From Bacteroidales bacterium (GTDB lineage: Bacteria; Bacteroidota; Bacteroidia; Bacteroidales; UBA7960), in the NCBI GenBank assembly GCA_007129255.1, contig SKVW01000053.1, positions 64,306-99,729 on the forward strand: a stretch of DNA of 35,424 bases. The letters are read 5' to 3'. Below are positions 23,214 to 33,147 of this stretch, piece by piece (the first letter of the stretch is position 1; each line of letters opens with the position of its first letter). Both the position numbers and the translations under genes were made by a program. A model generated the notes under the pieces. That model was not told the DNA's origin and ran no database searches. It saw nothing but the letters and a program-made list of their open reading frames with translations.

Positions 23214-25271
23214 TTATATTTTATCTTCCTGATTATTTTTTTCAATGGATTCGGGTTTGCTATCCGATTTTCTTGGGAGGGTCAGAATAAATTTTGTTCC
23301 GGTTGGGCCGGCATTGGGATCATTATTGGATTCTACTTTAATACTTCCCCGGTGCATTTTTACTATACCATAGATGATCGGGAGGCCGAGACCGGTGCCT
23401 TTCCCGTTCTCCTTGGTGGTAAAAAACGGCTCAAACATCCTGTCCAGATTTTCTTTGGAAATGCCTGTGCCGGTATCCTCAATTTCAAATTTTATTTCAT
23501 TGCCTGCAGCATGGTCTTCTGCGATAATGGTCAGTTCACCGCCCCCGGGCATGGCATCTATGGCATTCTTAAACAGGTTGGAAAAAACCTGCACCATTTG
23601 ATCCTTGTCGCATTCAATTACAGGATTGGGTGTTTTTATCCTGGTATCCAGCTTTACATTTGCCGGCATGACAAAAGCTTTAAGCCCGTCTTTAATCAGT
23701 CGCTTGATGGGCACTTCACTAATGGTTACCTTACTTTTCCTGGCAAAGTTCAGCAATCCGCCCACGATTTTTTTACATCGGTTGGCCTGCTCCACAATCA
23801 GTTTAAGATCCTTGTAAATAGGAGAACTGTTATCTATTTCATCCAGAAGGATGTGACTGTACATGATAACCACACCCAGAGGGTTGTTTACCTCGTGGGC
23901 GATGCCGGCGGCCAGCTGCCCCATGGAAGCCAGTTTCTCGCTTTGCTTAAGGGCTGCCTGGGTTGAAGCCAGTTTTTGGTTTGAAATATCCAGTTCGTCA
24001 ATGTATTTATGCAACTTGTCAATGGTATATGGCAGGCACATTTCGGTTTCGGCAATACCCTGCAGGATGGCAGCTGCATGCTCATAACAGGTATCATAAC
24101 CACAGGCACCACAGTTCAACTCATCTTCAGGGACCTTTTTTCCAAGGTCTGCCAGCACCTTTCTGATTTCTTCGCTATCGGGTGGATCGGGAAAACGCTG
24201 ATCATCAACCTGGAACTGGCGTGAAAGAGAAAGCTCCAGGAAAGTATCAAGATTTTTTTGCCATTGCTTCAGATCCAGACGGTCGAACTTGCGTTTGGCA
24301 AAATTCGAGATATTTTTTCTTTTGTGGAAAAACTGGTGTTTGTGGCTCATCCCAGGTCCGTTGATGCATCCGTTGCAACAAAGCAGGTCAAACATTTTCG
24401 CCTCCAGGTGGCCTTCCTCAAATTCCCGCAATACTTCAATGATATCATGGCGGCCTTCTGCCACCACGATCTCCCCTTTAATGAAGTCTTCTTCCAGGTC
24501 AACGGTTTGAAGCATACCGCCACTGATGGGAAAGACGGATCCTTTTCCGGCAATGGGGGGATCGAACTCCGAAGGACTTACATTGAATTCATTGATCCCT
24601 TTTTCAGAAAACATACGACGAAGTTCAATAAAAGAGATCACCACGTCAATAAAACCCTTGAATTGTTCGTTGGCCGCTTCTCCCTTTTTGGCAATGCAGG
24701 GACCGATAAAAACAATGCGAAGATCCTCGCCATGCATCTTTTTCAGGACTTTTGCAATAGCTACCATGGGAGAAACCACCGGGATAAGAGAGTCCACAAT
24801 ATTGGGATGGTGTTTCTCTACATAGCTAACAATGGAAGGACAACTTGTGGAAATGAAAGGGCGGTCGGAACCGGCCTGTAAAAGCTCTTTGTATTTATGG
24901 GCCACCAGTTCGGCGCCAAAAGCCACCTCGTTTACATAATCAAAACCCAGGGCTTTGATCATGCCAACAAAGTTGTGATAATCGGAAATGTCGGTAAATT
25001 CTCCGGCAATACTTGGGGCCACAATGGCCGCCACTTTTTCTCCCGATTGCAAATGTTTTTTCACCTGATCAATAGAAAAGGAAAACATTTTGGCGTCCCG
25101 GCTGCATACGCGCACGCAATTGCCGCAGGCAATACACCGGTTGCCAATGATCTCTGCCTGCCCGTTAATGATCTTAATGGCTTTGGCAGGGCATTCCCTA
25201 ACGCAGGTATAGCAAACCTTGCATCGATCCTTTACGGTGTATATGAACTGATTTTGATCTTTTTTTTGCAT
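23214..25271 (-). CDS. Sensory [FeFe]-hydrogenase-like protein fused to histidine kinase
   Basis: A 685-aa cytoplasmic fusion. Two ferredoxin clusters are complete (C17/C20/C23/C27 and C46/C49/C52/C56). An [FeFe]-hydrogenase large-subunit domain follows (70-340), with C144 (TSCPS), C192 (GPC), C298 and C302 (LCCNGC) at the four ligand positions of the [4Fe-4S] half of the H-cluster. The proton-shuttle Cys that normally precedes the first ligand is S143. An FeS domain CGACGYDTC with C412 is next, then HisKA with H459 (AHEVNNP) and HATPase (GTGLGL). This matches the histidine-kinase-linked sensory [FeFe] hydrogenases (HydDB group C1). It lies 25 nt after hydA. It probably reports H2 or ferredoxin state to the adjacent receivers. 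Confidence 0.9.
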
Positions 25272-25296: not shown

Positions 25297-27024
25297 CTAC
25301 TTCATCACTTCTCTTTTACGGAAATGCGTATGGAACCAGTCTTTTATTTTTTCTGATCCTGGAGAAGCATCTTTATTTTTGTACAGATCCAATACAAATG
25401 GATTTTCACCGGCTGACTTAATGGGAGAAATTTTTACCATTTCCTGGCAAAACTTTTTACGGTTTTTAGGCTTTTCAGGATTACGGCTGATGGGTTGTCC
25501 ACCGCCCCCGGCACAACCTCCAGGGCAGCCCATCACTTCAAGGTATTGGATATCGGTTCGGTTTTCTTCCAGGAGTTGTTGAAGGTAAGTATCGGCTTCT
25601 TCAATGCCACTGGTCCAGGCAAACCCAAATTCTTCATTTCCGGCCTTAAGCTTGGTTTCCTTTTTACCGGCAAGGTTTTTTGAAACCGAAAACTTAAATC
25701 CATCCTGGTTGCCATTGTTTTTCATTTTATACAACTCCAGGGCAATGGCCTCTGCTTTTCCTCCGGAATATCCCATCTTCCATGCAGAAGCGGATGATCT
25801 TTCAAAAGGGGTATCCAATTGCCCCGCCTTCAGACTTCTCAAATCGATTCCGAAGGTTCTCAGCAACCTGAAAAGTTCCCTTACGGTTAAAACGGCATCC
25901 ACTTCCGAAATGCCCTGGTGGGTCATTTCTTCCCTGGAAGCTTCAAATTTTTTGCCAACACAAGGCATTACCGCCACGCTGAAAACCTGGTCGGGATTTA
26001 ACTTTTGTGAATTGGTATAATGAGTTTTAAGCAAGTTACCAAAAATCTGTTGCGGAGATTTGGAACGAGCTAAAAAGGGGAGCCATTCGGTGCGAAATTC
26101 TTCAAGATATTGCACCCATGCCGGACAGCATGAAGAAATCATGGGCATGGAGGGATTTGTTGCCATGTGCTCATTTAGCAGGGCCGTTTCCTCAAGGATA
26201 TTGATGTCGCAGGCAAAACCAAGGTTAAATACCTTGTTGACCCCGCATTTTTTCAGGGCGGTATTGATCATTCCGGTAACATCCTGTTGGCTTTTGAGCC
26301 CGACCTGCTCTGCAACGGAGGCAACTGTGGAGGGAGAAAGAAAAAACAAGACTTCCTTGTTATCGCTTTCCAGTTCAGCCTGAATTTTCTCAAGGTGAGA
26401 AATATCAAGCAAAGCCCCGGTGGGACAAACCATGATACATTGTCCGCAGTTGATGCAGCTGGAAACGTTCAACCCTTTGTGAAAAGCACTGTTTACTTTG
26501 GTTTGGTTTGCCCTGGAAATAAAATCAATGGCAGTAACTTTCTGCACTTCTTCACACATTCTCACACAGCGGCTGCACAATACACATTTGCCGGGATCGC
26601 GAAAAACGCTGGTGCTAGAGTGGTCGGGGTAGTCTGCATTTTTTTCACCAAAAAATTTTCTCTCCTTTACATTCATTTCTTCGGCAAGCCATTGCAATTC
26701 GCAATTTCCATTTCGCTGGCAGTAAAGGCAGTCGTCGGGGTGGTTGGAAAGCAATAATTCCACCAGGGCTTTCCTTGCTTTGATAACCCTTGGAGAATTG
26801 GTTTTTACTTTCATGTTTTTTTCCACAGGGTAGGAACAGGAAGTGATCAGATCCCGCTTTCCTTCCACTTCCACCACACAAAGCCTGCAGGCCCCGGTAG
26901 GAGAAAACCGGTTCATATGACACAGCGTAGGCACCTTAAAGCCATTGCGCCTAAGGGCCACCAGTAAGGTTTCTCCTTCATGAACACTGACCGGGTTATT
27001 ATTTACTTCAATTTTAAAATCCAT
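25297..27024 (-). CDS. hydA: [FeFe] hydrogenase catalytic subunit HydA
   Basis: A 575-aa catalytic subunit of an NADH-linked, presumably electron-bifurcating trimeric hydrogenase. In order: a [2Fe-2S] domain (C35, C46, C49, C63), a His-ligated [4Fe-4S] (H95, C99, C102, C108), two ferredoxin clusters (C147/150/153/157 and C190/193/196/200), and the H-domain. H-cluster motifs are complete: SSCCPAW (C299, C300), MPC (C355) and EVMGCPGGC (C500, C504). The C-terminus extends about 70 residues and ends without a further [2Fe-2S] domain. Two residues of the clostridial CpI proton path (E282 and S319) appear as Leu and Ala. It lies 19 nt after hydB. Confidence 0.95.
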   Translation of the reverse strand: MDFKIEVNNNPVSVHEGETLLVALRRNGFKVPTLCHMNRFSPTGACRLCVVEVEGKRDLITSCSYPVEKNMKVKTNSPRVIKARKALVELLLSNHPDDCLYCQRNGNCELQWLAEEMNVKERKFFGEKNADYPDHSSTSVFRDPGKCVLCSRCVRMCEEVQKVTAIDFISRANQTKVNSAFHKGLNVSSCINCGQCIMVCPTGALLDISHLEKIQAELESDNKEVLFFLSPSTVASVAEQVGLKSQQDVTGMINTALKKCGVNKVFNLGFACDINILEETALLNEHMATNPSMPMISSCCPAWVQYLEEFRTEWLPFLARSKSPQQIFGNLLKTHYTNSQKLNPDQVFSVAVMPCVGKKFEASREEMTHQGISEVDAVLTVRELFRLLRTFGIDLRSLKAGQLDTPFERSSASAWKMGYSGGKAEAIALELYKMKNNGNQDGFKFSVSKNLAGKKETKLKAGNEEFGFAWTSGIEEADTYLQQLLEENRTDIQYLEVMGCPGGCAGGGGQPISRNPEKPKNRKKFCQEMVKISPIKSAGENPFVLDLYKNKDASPGSEKIKDWFHTHFRKREVMK

Positions 27025-29728: not shown

Positions 29729-29768
29729 TTTCCATAACGAAATAACTCACAGGAAAAAACCTTTGGTC

Positions 29769-30032
29769 ATGAGTAGCCTAACCACTGAAATTATTATTTG
29801 CATGGGCAGTAGTTGTTTTTCTAGAGGCAATAAAAAAACCCTTCAGATTATTCAGGAGTATTTAAAAGAGAAAGGCCTGGAACATAAAGTTTTATTCAGG
29901 GGCTCCCATTGTTTTGGTGAGTGCGAGCATGGCCCCATTCTTAAAATTGGAGAAAAGATTTACCGAAAGGTTGATACAAATTCCGTTCAGGACATTCTGG
30001 ACCAGTTATTGGTTGTATTGAGTTCCCAATGA
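29769..30032 (+). CDS. Thioredoxin-like [2Fe-2S] ferredoxin (NuoE C-domain type)
   Basis: An 87-aa free-standing thioredoxin-like ferredoxin with all four cluster cysteines, C11 and C16 (CMGSSC) plus C48 and C52 (CFGEC). It corresponds to the C-terminal half of HydC without the helical bundle. The ATG at 29769 is preferred to a TTG six bases upstream. It is the first gene of the plus-strand unit and is followed 68 nt later by the hydrogenase-like sensor, so it is probably that protein's electron-transfer partner. That pairing is inferred from order only. Confidence 0.88.
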   Translation: MSSLTTEIIICMGSSCFSRGNKKTLQIIQEYLKEKGLEHKVLFRGSHCFGECEHGPILKIGEKIYRKVDTNSVQDILDQLLVVLSSQ

Positions 30033-30100: not shown

Positions 30101-31954
30101 ATGGAAGTCATAGAAATAGATCATTCCCGTTGTACCCAGACCTATGCCTGTATAAGGGCATGCCCGGTACATGCAATCGTTGCCCGCGACAGTGACGGAA
30201 TGCCGGAGGTAAACCACCAACGATGCATTGGTTGTGGCAGCTGCCTATCGGTTTGTAGTGCGGATGCAGTTTCCTATGTCAGTTCGGTAAAAGAAACCAT
30301 CAAACTGCTTGAATCCGGAGAGCAGGTTGCCGCCATAGTGGATCCCGCCATTAGCGGGGAATTTCCTGACATTACCGATTACCGGAAGTTTGTAGAGATG
30401 ATCCGGACCATTGGCTTTGACTTTGTCAGTGAAGTATCTTTTGGGGTGGACCTGGTTGCCAGAAAATACCATGACCTGATCGGGAACTTTAAGGGAAAGT
30501 ATTATTTGTTAGCCAATTGCCCCACTTTGGTAAGTTACGTTGAAAAGTTTTACCCTGAATTGACCGATAATCTTGCCCCCATTGTTACCCCCATGACTGC
30601 CACCGCCAAGGTAGTCAGAAAAGCATACGGCAAAGGGCTTAAAGTGGTTTTTATAGGACCGTGTTTATCCACAAAACATGAAGCCAAATTATTTGATGAT
30701 GACGGGAAAGTGGATGCAGTGCTTACCTTCCAGGAGTTGCGCCAAATGTTCAGGCATTACAACATCAAGGAAAGCAAAGTGGAATATTCGGATTTTGACC
30801 CTCCAATCGGCAACCTTGGTTCACTTTATCCACTAAGCAGCGGTATTTTGTATGCTGCCGGCATTGATCAGGATTTGCTCAAAGGGATGGTGATCACTAC
30901 CGAGGGCAAAAACAATATGCTGGAAGCAGTGGAAGAGTTTAATGAAAGCACTGAATTTATCCGAAAGCATTTCAATATTTTTTATAATGAAGGCTGCCTG
31001 ATGGGGCCGGGTAATACCGATAAATCTAAAAAATTCCTCCGCAGAACCCTGGTTGTGGATTATGCCAATAAAAGGCTGAAAGATTTTGAGAAAGAGAAAT
31101 GGGACGCCAATATGAAAGCATTTCTTTCCCTTGATTTTTCAAGGACTTTTAAGAAGGATGATCAGCGCCTGCCATACCCTGGAGACGACCGTGTTGAAGA
31201 AATCCTGAAAAGCCTTGGCAAAAGCCCGGATGAAAAAGCTTCCTGTAACGCCTGTGGATATAGAAGTTGTCGTGAATTTGCTGCTTCCATCAGCCAGGGA
31301 TTGACCAAACCGGAGATGTGCCTTAATTACTCCCTGAAAAGCAAACAGGATTATATTAAAACCCTTAAAAACAAGAATGAAAAACTAAAAAAGCAAGTGG
31401 ATGCCCTTAAGGAAACGGAAGGGACTCTTGCCAATGAAAACCAGAAAATAAAACTGGCCCTGGAAACCACTTCTGCCCTGCTTCAAAATCTTCCTTCGGC
31501 AGCGGTAATCGTTAATGAAAAATTAAAAGTAATAGAATCCAATGGCAGTTTTGTGAAAGTACTGGGAGAAGATGCAGAGATGGTCAATGAGGTGATTCCC
31601 GGGCTGAAAGGGGCCGATTTGAAAACCCTGCTGCCTTATAACATTTACAACCTGTTTACTTATGTGCTGGAAAATGATGAAAACATAACAGGTAAGGATG
31701 TGCAATATGGAGAAGGCCTGCTGAATGTCAGTGTTTATTCGCTTAAGCCCGGGAAAATTGTCGGGGCGGTATTCCGGGATATGTATGTTGCAGAAGTGCG
31801 GCAGGAAGAGATCATCAACCGGGTAAGCGAAGTAATTGATGAAAACCTGAAAATGGTTCAGAATATTGCCTTTTTGCTTGGAGAGGGCGCCAGCAATACC
31901 GAAAAAATGCTCAACTCCATTATAGAAACTTACAGCAAGATCAAAAAGCCCTGA
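30101..31954 (+). CDS. Sensory [FeFe]-hydrogenase-like protein with PAS domain, phosphatase-linked
   Basis: A 617-aa homologue of the kinase-fused sensor with a different output. The first ferredoxin motif has C11, T14, C17 and C21, so one ligand is lost; the second is complete (C42/45/48/52). The hydrogenase-like domain keeps C140 (ANCPT), C188 (GPC) and C299 (NEGC), but the ligand four residues before C299 is Y295. The FeS domain is CNACGYRSC plus C407. A coiled coil (about 412-450) leads to a PAS domain (about 455-570) and a C-terminal helix. It resembles phosphatase-linked sensory hydrogenases (HydDB group C3) and precedes a SpoIIE-type phosphatase by 8 nt. H2 catalysis is unlikely with these losses. 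Confidence 0.88.
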   Translation: MEVIEIDHSRCTQTYACIRACPVHAIVARDSDGMPEVNHQRCIGCGSCLSVCSADAVSYVSSVKETIKLLESGEQVAAIVDPAISGEFPDITDYRKFVEMIRTIGFDFVSEVSFGVDLVARKYHDLIGNFKGKYYLLANCPTLVSYVEKFYPELTDNLAPIVTPMTATAKVVRKAYGKGLKVVFIGPCLSTKHEAKLFDDDGKVDAVLTFQELRQMFRHYNIKESKVEYSDFDPPIGNLGSLYPLSSGILYAAGIDQDLLKGMVITTEGKNNMLEAVEEFNESTEFIRKHFNIFYNEGCLMGPGNTDKSKKFLRRTLVVDYANKRLKDFEKEKWDANMKAFLSLDFSRTFKKDDQRLPYPGDDRVEEILKSLGKSPDEKASCNACGYRSCREFAASISQGLTKPEMCLNYSLKSKQDYIKTLKNKNEKLKKQVDALKETEGTLANENQKIKLALETTSALLQNLPSAAVIVNEKLKVIESNGSFVKVLGEDAEMVNEVIPGLKGADLKTLLPYNIYNLFTYVLENDENITGKDVQYGEGLLNVSVYSLKPGKIVGAVFRDMYVAEVRQEEIINRVSEVIDENLKMVQNIAFLLGEGASNTEKMLNSIIETYSKIKKP

Positions 31955-31962
31955 TATTTCCC

Positions 31963-33147
31963 ATGAATGAGCTGTTTTACATAGAAGTCGGTTCCCAGCA
32001 AAAAAGCCATAGCGGAGAAAGAATTTGTGGGGATGTCTTTGTTTCCCAAAAGGTAAAAGAAGAGGGCCGAACTGTTGGGGTACTTTCTGACGGGATGGGT
32101 CATGGAGTAAAGGCAAACCTGCTGGCCTCTTTAACAGCGACCATGGCCCTGAACTTTACCAAAGAGCACAAAGACGCCCACAAAATTGCAGAAATAATTA
32201 TGAATACACTGCCCGTCTGCAGTGAAAGAAAAATCAGTTATTCCACTTTTACCATAATCGATATTGAGCAATCGGGGCAAACTACCATTATTAATTATGA
32301 CAATCCGGATAGTATTGTACTTCGGGGTGAAGATTTCTTTGAACCCGAATGGCAGGTTATCACGCTTGAAAACGGAGACAATGAAGGAAAGGAAATAAAA
32401 GCCTGTACTTTTAAAGCCCGGAAAGAAGACCGCATTTTATTGCTTTCCGACGGGATAACCCAGTCCGGCCTGGGAAAAGGAAAGTTTCTGCTTGGTTGGG
32501 GCCTGGAAAATGTTAGATCCCTTGTAAAAAAGAGTGTGGAGGACAATCCGGGGATTTCTGCTGATCGGCTGGCCGCTACCATCGTTAATAAAGCCCATTC
32601 CAATGATGGCTACCAGGCCAAAGATGACATCAGCACTGTGGTCTTTTATTTCAGAGAACCCCGCCGGTTGTTGCTTTGTTCGGGTCCGCCTTTTGAAAAG
32701 CAAAAGGATAAAGAACTGGCCCAGGTGGTAAAGGATTTCTCAGGGAAGAAAATTCTTTGTGGAGGTACTACAGCCGATATTGTATCAAGGGAGCTGGATA
32801 TTCCCATTGAAGATTTCCTGGAATTTGACGACCCGGATCTACCCCCTGTTTCTCATATGGAGGGAATTGATCTGGTAACTGAAGGCATTTTAACCCTGAG
32901 TAAAGTGTCAGGAATTCTGGAAAAGCATAGTGACCGAACCGATCTTGGAAAAGGCCCTGCCGATCGTATTGTTAAAATGATACTCGACAGCGATGAAATC
33001 AGTATCTGGGTTGGAACAGCCATTAATGTTGCCCACCAGGACCCTAACCTGCCCGTAGAATTGGAAATTAGGCGAACTGTCATGAAAAAGATCGCCCGAA
33101 TTTTGGAGGAAAAGTTCCTGAAAGAAGTCCGTTTGCAGTTTATTTAA
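31963..33147 (+). CDS. SpoIIE/PP2C-type serine phosphatase with uncharacterised C-terminal domain
   Basis: A 394-aa cytoplasmic protein. The PPM phosphatase domain (1-232) has the metal-binding acids in GERICGD (D24), LSDGMGHG (D43), LLLSDGITQSG (D163) and KDDIST (D221/D222). After it come about 155 residues with no recognised motif beyond SGKKILCGGTTADIVSREL (259-277). SpoIIE/RsbU-type enzymes dephosphorylate anti-anti-sigma (STAS) proteins to release sigma factors. No STAS, RsbW-like kinase or sigma factor is in the window, so the substrate is unknown. It is coupled to the sensor gene 8 nt upstream, which probably regulates its activity. Confidence 0.9.
   Translation: MNELFYIEVGSQQKSHSGERICGDVFVSQKVKEEGRTVGVLSDGMGHGVKANLLASLTATMALNFTKEHKDAHKIAEIIMNTLPVCSERKISYSTFTIIDIEQSGQTTIINYDNPDSIVLRGEDFFEPEWQVITLENGDNEGKEIKACTFKARKEDRILLLSDGITQSGLGKGKFLLGWGLENVRSLVKKSVEDNPGISADRLAATIVNKAHSNDGYQAKDDISTVVFYFREPRRLLLCSGPPFEKQKDKELAQVVKDFSGKKILCGGTTADIVSRELDIPIEDFLEFDDPDLPPVSHMEGIDLVTEGILTLSKVSGILEKHSDRTDLGKGPADRIVKMILDSDEISIWVGTAINVAHQDPNLPVELEIRRTVMKKIARILEEKFLKEVRLQFI

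Follow-up and report, generated by a model that had tools for sequence, protein, structure and literature searches.

Sensory [FeFe]-hydrogenases that carry a PAS domain and are paired with a Ser/Thr phosphatase have been described as HfsB-HfsC, from hfsABCD of Thermoanaerobacterium, and as HydS of Ruminococcus albus (PMC5707799, PMC11837493, PMC6776011). Deletion of hfsB increases the expression of adhE (PMC5707799), HfsC is described as homologous to serine phosphatases (PMC11837493), and HydS of R. albus has been reported with its phosphatase (PMC6776011). For HfsB and HydS, which we liken to our protein by their descriptions, sensing of H2 or of redox state via the H-cluster has been proposed. 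Further sensory hydrogenases likewise contain two N-terminal [4Fe-4S] clusters and an H domain followed by a Cx2Cx4Cx16C motif, and they have no Cys at the position of the proton-shuttle Cys299 of CpI (PMC10055695, PMC8163306).

The window analysed here is a stretch of 35,424 nt (GCA_007129255.1, SKVW01000053.1, positions 64,306-99,729 of the forward strand) from a Bacteroidales genome of 3.14 Mb that is 95% complete, and the named neighbours in the comparison are Bacteroidales MAGs. Its hydrogenase locus encodes on the minus strand HydC, HydB and HydA, a histidine-kinase-linked sensory hydrogenase, response regulators, Rex and HydG. Lysine 358 of CpI is the residue that contacts a cyanide of [2Fe]. 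The kinase-linked sensory paralogue (23214..25271, minus strand), which has all four ligand Cys and the K358 equivalent, and the bona fide HydA (25297..27024, minus strand), in which SSCCPAW (L1), MPCVGKK and MGCPGGC are intact, served as comparison controls. The plus strand, running divergently, carries a small thioredoxin-like [2Fe-2S] ferredoxin gene (29763..30032) upstream of the gene studied here, a HydS/HfsB-like sensory [FeFe]-hydrogenase homologue of 617 aa with three Cys in its H-cluster ligand set (30101..31954). The initial annotation had ended this gene at 31021, and the intact open reading frame is longer. A SpoIIE/PP2C-family Ser/Thr phosphatase of 394 aa with five catalytic Asp (31963..33147, plus strand) begins only 8 nt downstream, as expected of a phosphatase-linked group C protein. 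The C-terminal ~165 aa of this phosphatase (32650-33144) match no Pfam family, and the segment EGxDLVTEGxxTL within them is shared with the distant phosphatases of L100 and L102. No STAS or RsbW-type target of the phosphatase was found in the locus except the HATPase of two-component proteins, and the STAS matches lie on other contigs. Elsewhere in the same genome, an RsbW-like HATPase_c_2 gene (G000:C86:18704-19051, L253; also L006) adjoins a 460-aa ferredoxin-hydrogenase-FeS protein and is a possible kinase counterpart to the phosphatase.

The sensor has the [FeFe]-hydrogenase fold, as judged by its match to PF02906 (2.2e-36, 126 bits; cut-off 22.1) and by its best Foldseek matches, which are the [FeFe]-hydrogenases TmHydABC, DdHydAB and CpI. 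Its domain order is two [4Fe-4S] ferredoxin motifs, the Fe_hyd_lg_C domain, a Cx2Cx4Cx16C cluster motif (C382, C385, C390, C407; 31244..31321, plus strand) and a coiled coil with a PAS-like region (31418..31954, plus strand). This is the arrangement of the phosphatase-linked members of group C, with a PAS match (PF00989, E 0.005) that is weak and below the Pfam cut-off, and the Cx2Cx4Cx16C motif is typical of sensory hydrogenases of groups C and D (PMC8163306). An AF2 model built from 34 sequences (mean pLDDT 71.5) places a long helix and then an alpha/beta fold at the C-terminus; residues 286-313 have pLDDT <50, and the geometry of the L3 loop could not be used.

All of the residues and codons that had been read in the initial annotation are correct. 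The first ferredoxin motif, C11-x2-T14-x2-C17-x3-C21 (30131..30163, plus strand), has Thr (ACC, 30140-30142) in place of its second Cys, and the second motif (C42/C45/C48/C52; 30224..30256, plus strand) is intact and invariant in the family. The H-cluster motifs all lie on the plus strand. In L1 (30515..30520) the ligand C140 is preceded by N139 at the proton-shuttle position (C299 of CpI), which lacks its Cys in characterised sensory hydrogenases too (PMC8163306); in L2 (30662..30673) the ligand C188 is followed by T191 at the position of K358. The third motif, L3 (30983..30997), reads Y295-N296-E-G-C299 and retains C299, the equivalent of the bridging Cys. Thus, C140, C188 and C299 are present, as claimed, and one of the four Cys ligands of [4Fe-4S]H, which are described as conserved in the sensory type (PMC10055695), is missing.

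The identity of the missing ligand depends on the register of the alignment. The initial annotation had taken Tyr295 (TAT, 30983-30985), four residues before C299, as the substituted ligand. In the family and in 38/38 kinase-linked sensory paralogues, however, the ligand Cys stands at column 296, spaced as C-x-x-C299 and not as C-x-x-x-C299, and MAFFT aligns the Cys of bona fide HydA to this column too. Tyr or Phe fills position 295 in 142 of 149 orthologues, those with all four Cys among them, so that Tyr295 is not a substitution, and its role as a replacement ligand in a cluster held by three Cys plus Tyr can be dismissed. The loss of one ligand Cys therefore stands, and the residue concerned is Asn296 (AAT, 30986-30988), one position onward. 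A nearby Cys taking over as ligand would speak against the initial reading. The family does have such a Cys, at column 296 instead of the canonical position, but the window sensor has Asn there, and a scan of all alignment columns revealed no compensating Cys. A sequencing artefact does not explain Asn296, since it recurs, together with Ser14, in the orthologue L037, which is 94% identical, and N, H or D occupies column 296 in 35/35 members of the window clade.

The family consists of 149 orthologues, gathered from 393 genomes of the same order, 38 named loci and retrieved regions; a second phosphatase-linked family (L100-L102) was left out of it. All four ligand Cys (C140/C188/C296/C299) are present in 83 of the 149. 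A group of 55, which includes the window sensor, has only three, and column 296 is then restricted to N (25), H (18) or D (12), while C188 and C299 are kept in 55/55 and C140 in 54/54 readable sequences. Such a restriction beside three invariant Cys argues for the upkeep of a site that has changed but is still occupied. In the AU test, a single clade for the three-Cys group was not rejected (p 0.91, the constrained tree scoring higher), which allows one loss of Cys296 followed by interchange of N, H and D; we therefore do not claim many independent losses. The trees were built by a quick method, and their deep nodes are weak. Glu99 (30395-30397) occurs in 47/55 three-Cys proteins vs 2/86 four-Cys proteins and could either mark a clade or pair structurally with residue 296, the independent contrasts being too few for a test.

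The remaining 11 of the 149, which belong to families f8, f42 and f94, have decayed further and have lost two to four ligands. Seven of them lack all four (five in f42 and two in f8: L147, L153, L151, L159, L162, L163 and L168, from genomes G125, G007, G384, G247, G042, G153 and G322), three in f8 lack C188, C296 and C299, and L129 lacks C188 and C296. In the seven proteins with no ligand left, C140 has become Asp and C188 has become Leu, Asp, Gln, Glu or Asn; the Cys of the ferredoxin and C-terminal clusters and the phosphatase have been kept. In f8, f42 and L129 the decay occurred separately from the three-Cys group and with different replacements.

One might suppose that these are pseudogenes drifting without function, given that otherwise conserved ligands have been lost. 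This explanation is hardly credible and is already contradicted by the open frames, found in essentially all orthologues, and by the conserved gene order. Between the window sensor and L037 dN/dS is 0.03, and in the decayed pair L147/L153 the whole gene gives 0.03 and the H domain 0.07, which points to strong purifying selection. A caveat on these ratios is that dS is high or saturated, and close to saturation in most comparisons. The partner phosphatase is likewise intact. It is found downstream in 137/151 checked loci (the three loci of the second family counted in), and with all of its catalytic Asp in 52/54 three-Cys loci and 11/11 decayed loci; in every partner phosphatase found, the catalytic Asp are intact. 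The thioredoxin-like [2Fe-2S] ferredoxin gene also precedes 11/11 decayed homologues.

The erosion is not a general property of sensory or of phosphatase-linked hydrogenases. Kinase-linked sensory paralogues keep every ligand Cys and the K358 equivalent even in the same genomes, and in G007 and G125 a kinase-linked paralogue with all ligands lies ~5 kb from a phosphatase-linked one with none. The second phosphatase-linked sensory family, L100-L102, also has four ligand Cys and the K358 equivalent (3/3). Because both controls keep the ligands and the Lys, the erosion is specific to the family of the window sensor. It extends beyond the ligands: Lys at column 191, the K358 equivalent, is found in 2/149 orthologues vs 38/38 paralogues, and A81 and G247 are altered in most orthologues and kept in the paralogues.

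At the first ferredoxin site, among the 146 readable orthologues, column 14 is Cys in 97, Ser in 47, Asn in one and Thr in the window sensor, with approximately seven changes on the tree and Ser in nearly all of the window clade; it is Cys in 38/38 other sensory paralogues, which bears out the reported loss of this Cys. The Cys of the N-terminal and C-terminal clusters are otherwise essentially invariant, the decayed group included. At the level of sequence, replacement of the second Cys of CxxCxxCxxxCP by T14 is of the 7Fe/[3Fe-4S] ferredoxin type, and the suggestion that the site may hold a [3Fe-4S] or labile cluster fits chemical precedent. According to one explanation, the protein is an O2 or NO sensor in which a weakly ligated fourth iron, together with the Ser/Thr14 cluster, would be lost on oxidation, and this loss would be the signal. 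Two cluster sites with a non-Cys fourth position are in keeping with it, as are NsrR, which senses NO through a cluster held by three Cys and Asp (PMC5411485), and Nar1, whose clusters are O2-labile (PMC12621388). However, no coupling of the Cys14 and Cys296 losses was seen on the tree, Cys14 is retained in 10/11 decayed homologues, and nothing in the locus points to a response to O2 or NO. We consider this explanation improbable.

A stronger rival is that the protein still functions as an H2 sensor, through an H-cluster in which one ligand has been swapped: three Cys and Asn, His or Asp would hold the [4Fe-4S] part, and [2Fe]H would be bridged via C299 and installed by HydEFG. HydE, HydF and HydG are encoded in the window genome and also where decayed copies occur. 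Delivery of [2Fe]H is therefore conceivable, and for this reason we regard this explanation as the main rival; moreover, the locus adjoins HydABC and HydG. The bridging-position C299 is invariant in the 138 non-decayed orthologues, and H or D at column 296 would be a plausible Fe ligand. An H-cluster might still form after one Cys has been lost, because Cys-to-His variants at a [4Fe-4S]H ligand are reported to be hydrogenases whose bias is shifted and whose activity is altered rather than absent (PMC11376134). Against this explanation, the K358 equivalent has been lost in 147/149 and A81 and G247 have changed in most, all of which the paralogues keep, and some homologues without any ligand have retained the phosphatase, so that H2 binding is dispensable in those lineages. 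On balance, a ligand-swapped working sensor seems to us possible but unlikely.

The presence of maturases carries weight in that argument, and their absence could not be used in the opposite direction. In eight genomes (G233, G375, G136 and G311, f23; G043 and G154, f43; G050 and G003), most of them 92-100% complete, HydE, HydF and HydG all fall below the model cut-off. Even so, HydA-type proteins are encoded in them, and several of these have canonical ligands (TSCCPAW, MPCLAKK, MACPGGC); absence of the maturases was therefore rejected as proof that an H-cluster is lacking. Either the maturases of these genomes are unusual or absent, or their HydA-type proteins function without [2Fe]H. Other unusual hydrogenases were encountered in the comparison. 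A HydA-like family (L001, G000:C86:15731-16639; L193, L195-L198, L208 and L210) has TSCSPGW in L1, with Ser for the ligand Cys (C300 of CpI) and the other motifs intact. In f8, the HydA-type proteins L225, L227, L229 and L230, which adjoin decayed sensors, carry CTAAK, with Ala where K358 would stand, and their L3 motif is shortened to CDGC or CRGC.

We lean towards the view that the window sensor is an HfsB/HydS-like sensor that is becoming a pseudo-hydrogenase, within a hydrogenase-phosphatase signalling pair of a Bacteroidales family. The residues, the family pattern, selection, the gene pairing and the retained catalytic residues of the phosphatase were observed directly; from these, we infer the cluster type, the absence of [2Fe]H, the signal and the direction of regulation. 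Because column 296 is only N, H or D beside three invariant Cys, a cluster with a non-Cys fourth ligand or an open site, as in NsrR, is indicated, and the missing K358 equivalent speaks against a [2Fe]H subsite; Nar1 demonstrates that a hydrogenase-like protein can exist without [2Fe]H. Taken together, the loss of K358, the restricted residue 296 and these two precedents favour a sensor of redox state or cluster occupancy acting on the phosphatase. Relatives without any ligand and with an intact partner phosphatase suggest that an enzyme has been made into a sensor and has ceased to act on hydrogen.

On this pseudo-hydrogenase model, C140, C188 and C299 of the H domain would probably hold a cubane whose fourth iron binds Asn296 or solvent, with the [2Fe]H subsite missing. 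Electron exchange with ferredoxin would take place at the N-terminal ferredoxin clusters, of which one has Ser/Thr14, and the occupancy or redox state would change the H domain and the C-terminal cluster. Through the coiled coil and the PAS-like region, the signal would then reach the neighbouring PP2C phosphatase and determine how active it is. For the family as a whole, we see about an even chance that it is one of pseudo-[FeFe]-hydrogenases in which the fold and the phosphatase have been kept and the [2Fe]H site given up family-wide, with one Asn/His/Asp-[4Fe-4S] branch and some ligand-free branches. The idea of a pseudo-hydrogenase, already raised in the initial annotation, gains strong support from the no-ligand relatives, purifying selection, the intact phosphatase and the family-wide loss of the K358 equivalent. 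Its companion claim, that a standard H-cluster is improbable, is plausible on the same grounds.

Group C hydrogenases are assumed to be H2 sensors, and the phosphatase-linked subfamily described here keeps its signalling output as it dismantles the H2 site stepwise. It thus offers a natural series (four Cys; three Cys with N, H or D; none) in which to ask whether the signal is H2, redox state or cluster occupancy. Annotation pipelines may be counting non-hydrogenases as H2 sensors.

Compared by description with HfsB and HydS, the window family lacks the K358 equivalent, and the window branch also lacks one ligand Cys. The sensory hydrogenases of PMC10055695 and PMC8163306, unlike the window sensor, conserve the ligand Cys, and a functional H-cluster forms in them. 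Within Bacteroidota, L100-L102 have the same domain order, with a SpoIIE phosphatase 54-74 nt downstream, but they are only 25-28% identical and keep the four ligand Cys (with CxxxC spacing), Cys14 and K358. Nar1/CIAO3/IOP1 is likewise a hydrogenase-like protein without [2Fe]H (PMC12621388); it differs in that it serves Fe-S trafficking in eukaryotes, retains both [4Fe-4S] sites and has no phosphatase partner. Although NsrR is an Rrf2 transcription factor of unrelated fold, it resembles the proposed state of the window sensor in that its sensory [4Fe-4S] cluster is held by three Cys and a non-Cys fourth ligand, Asp (PMC5411485).
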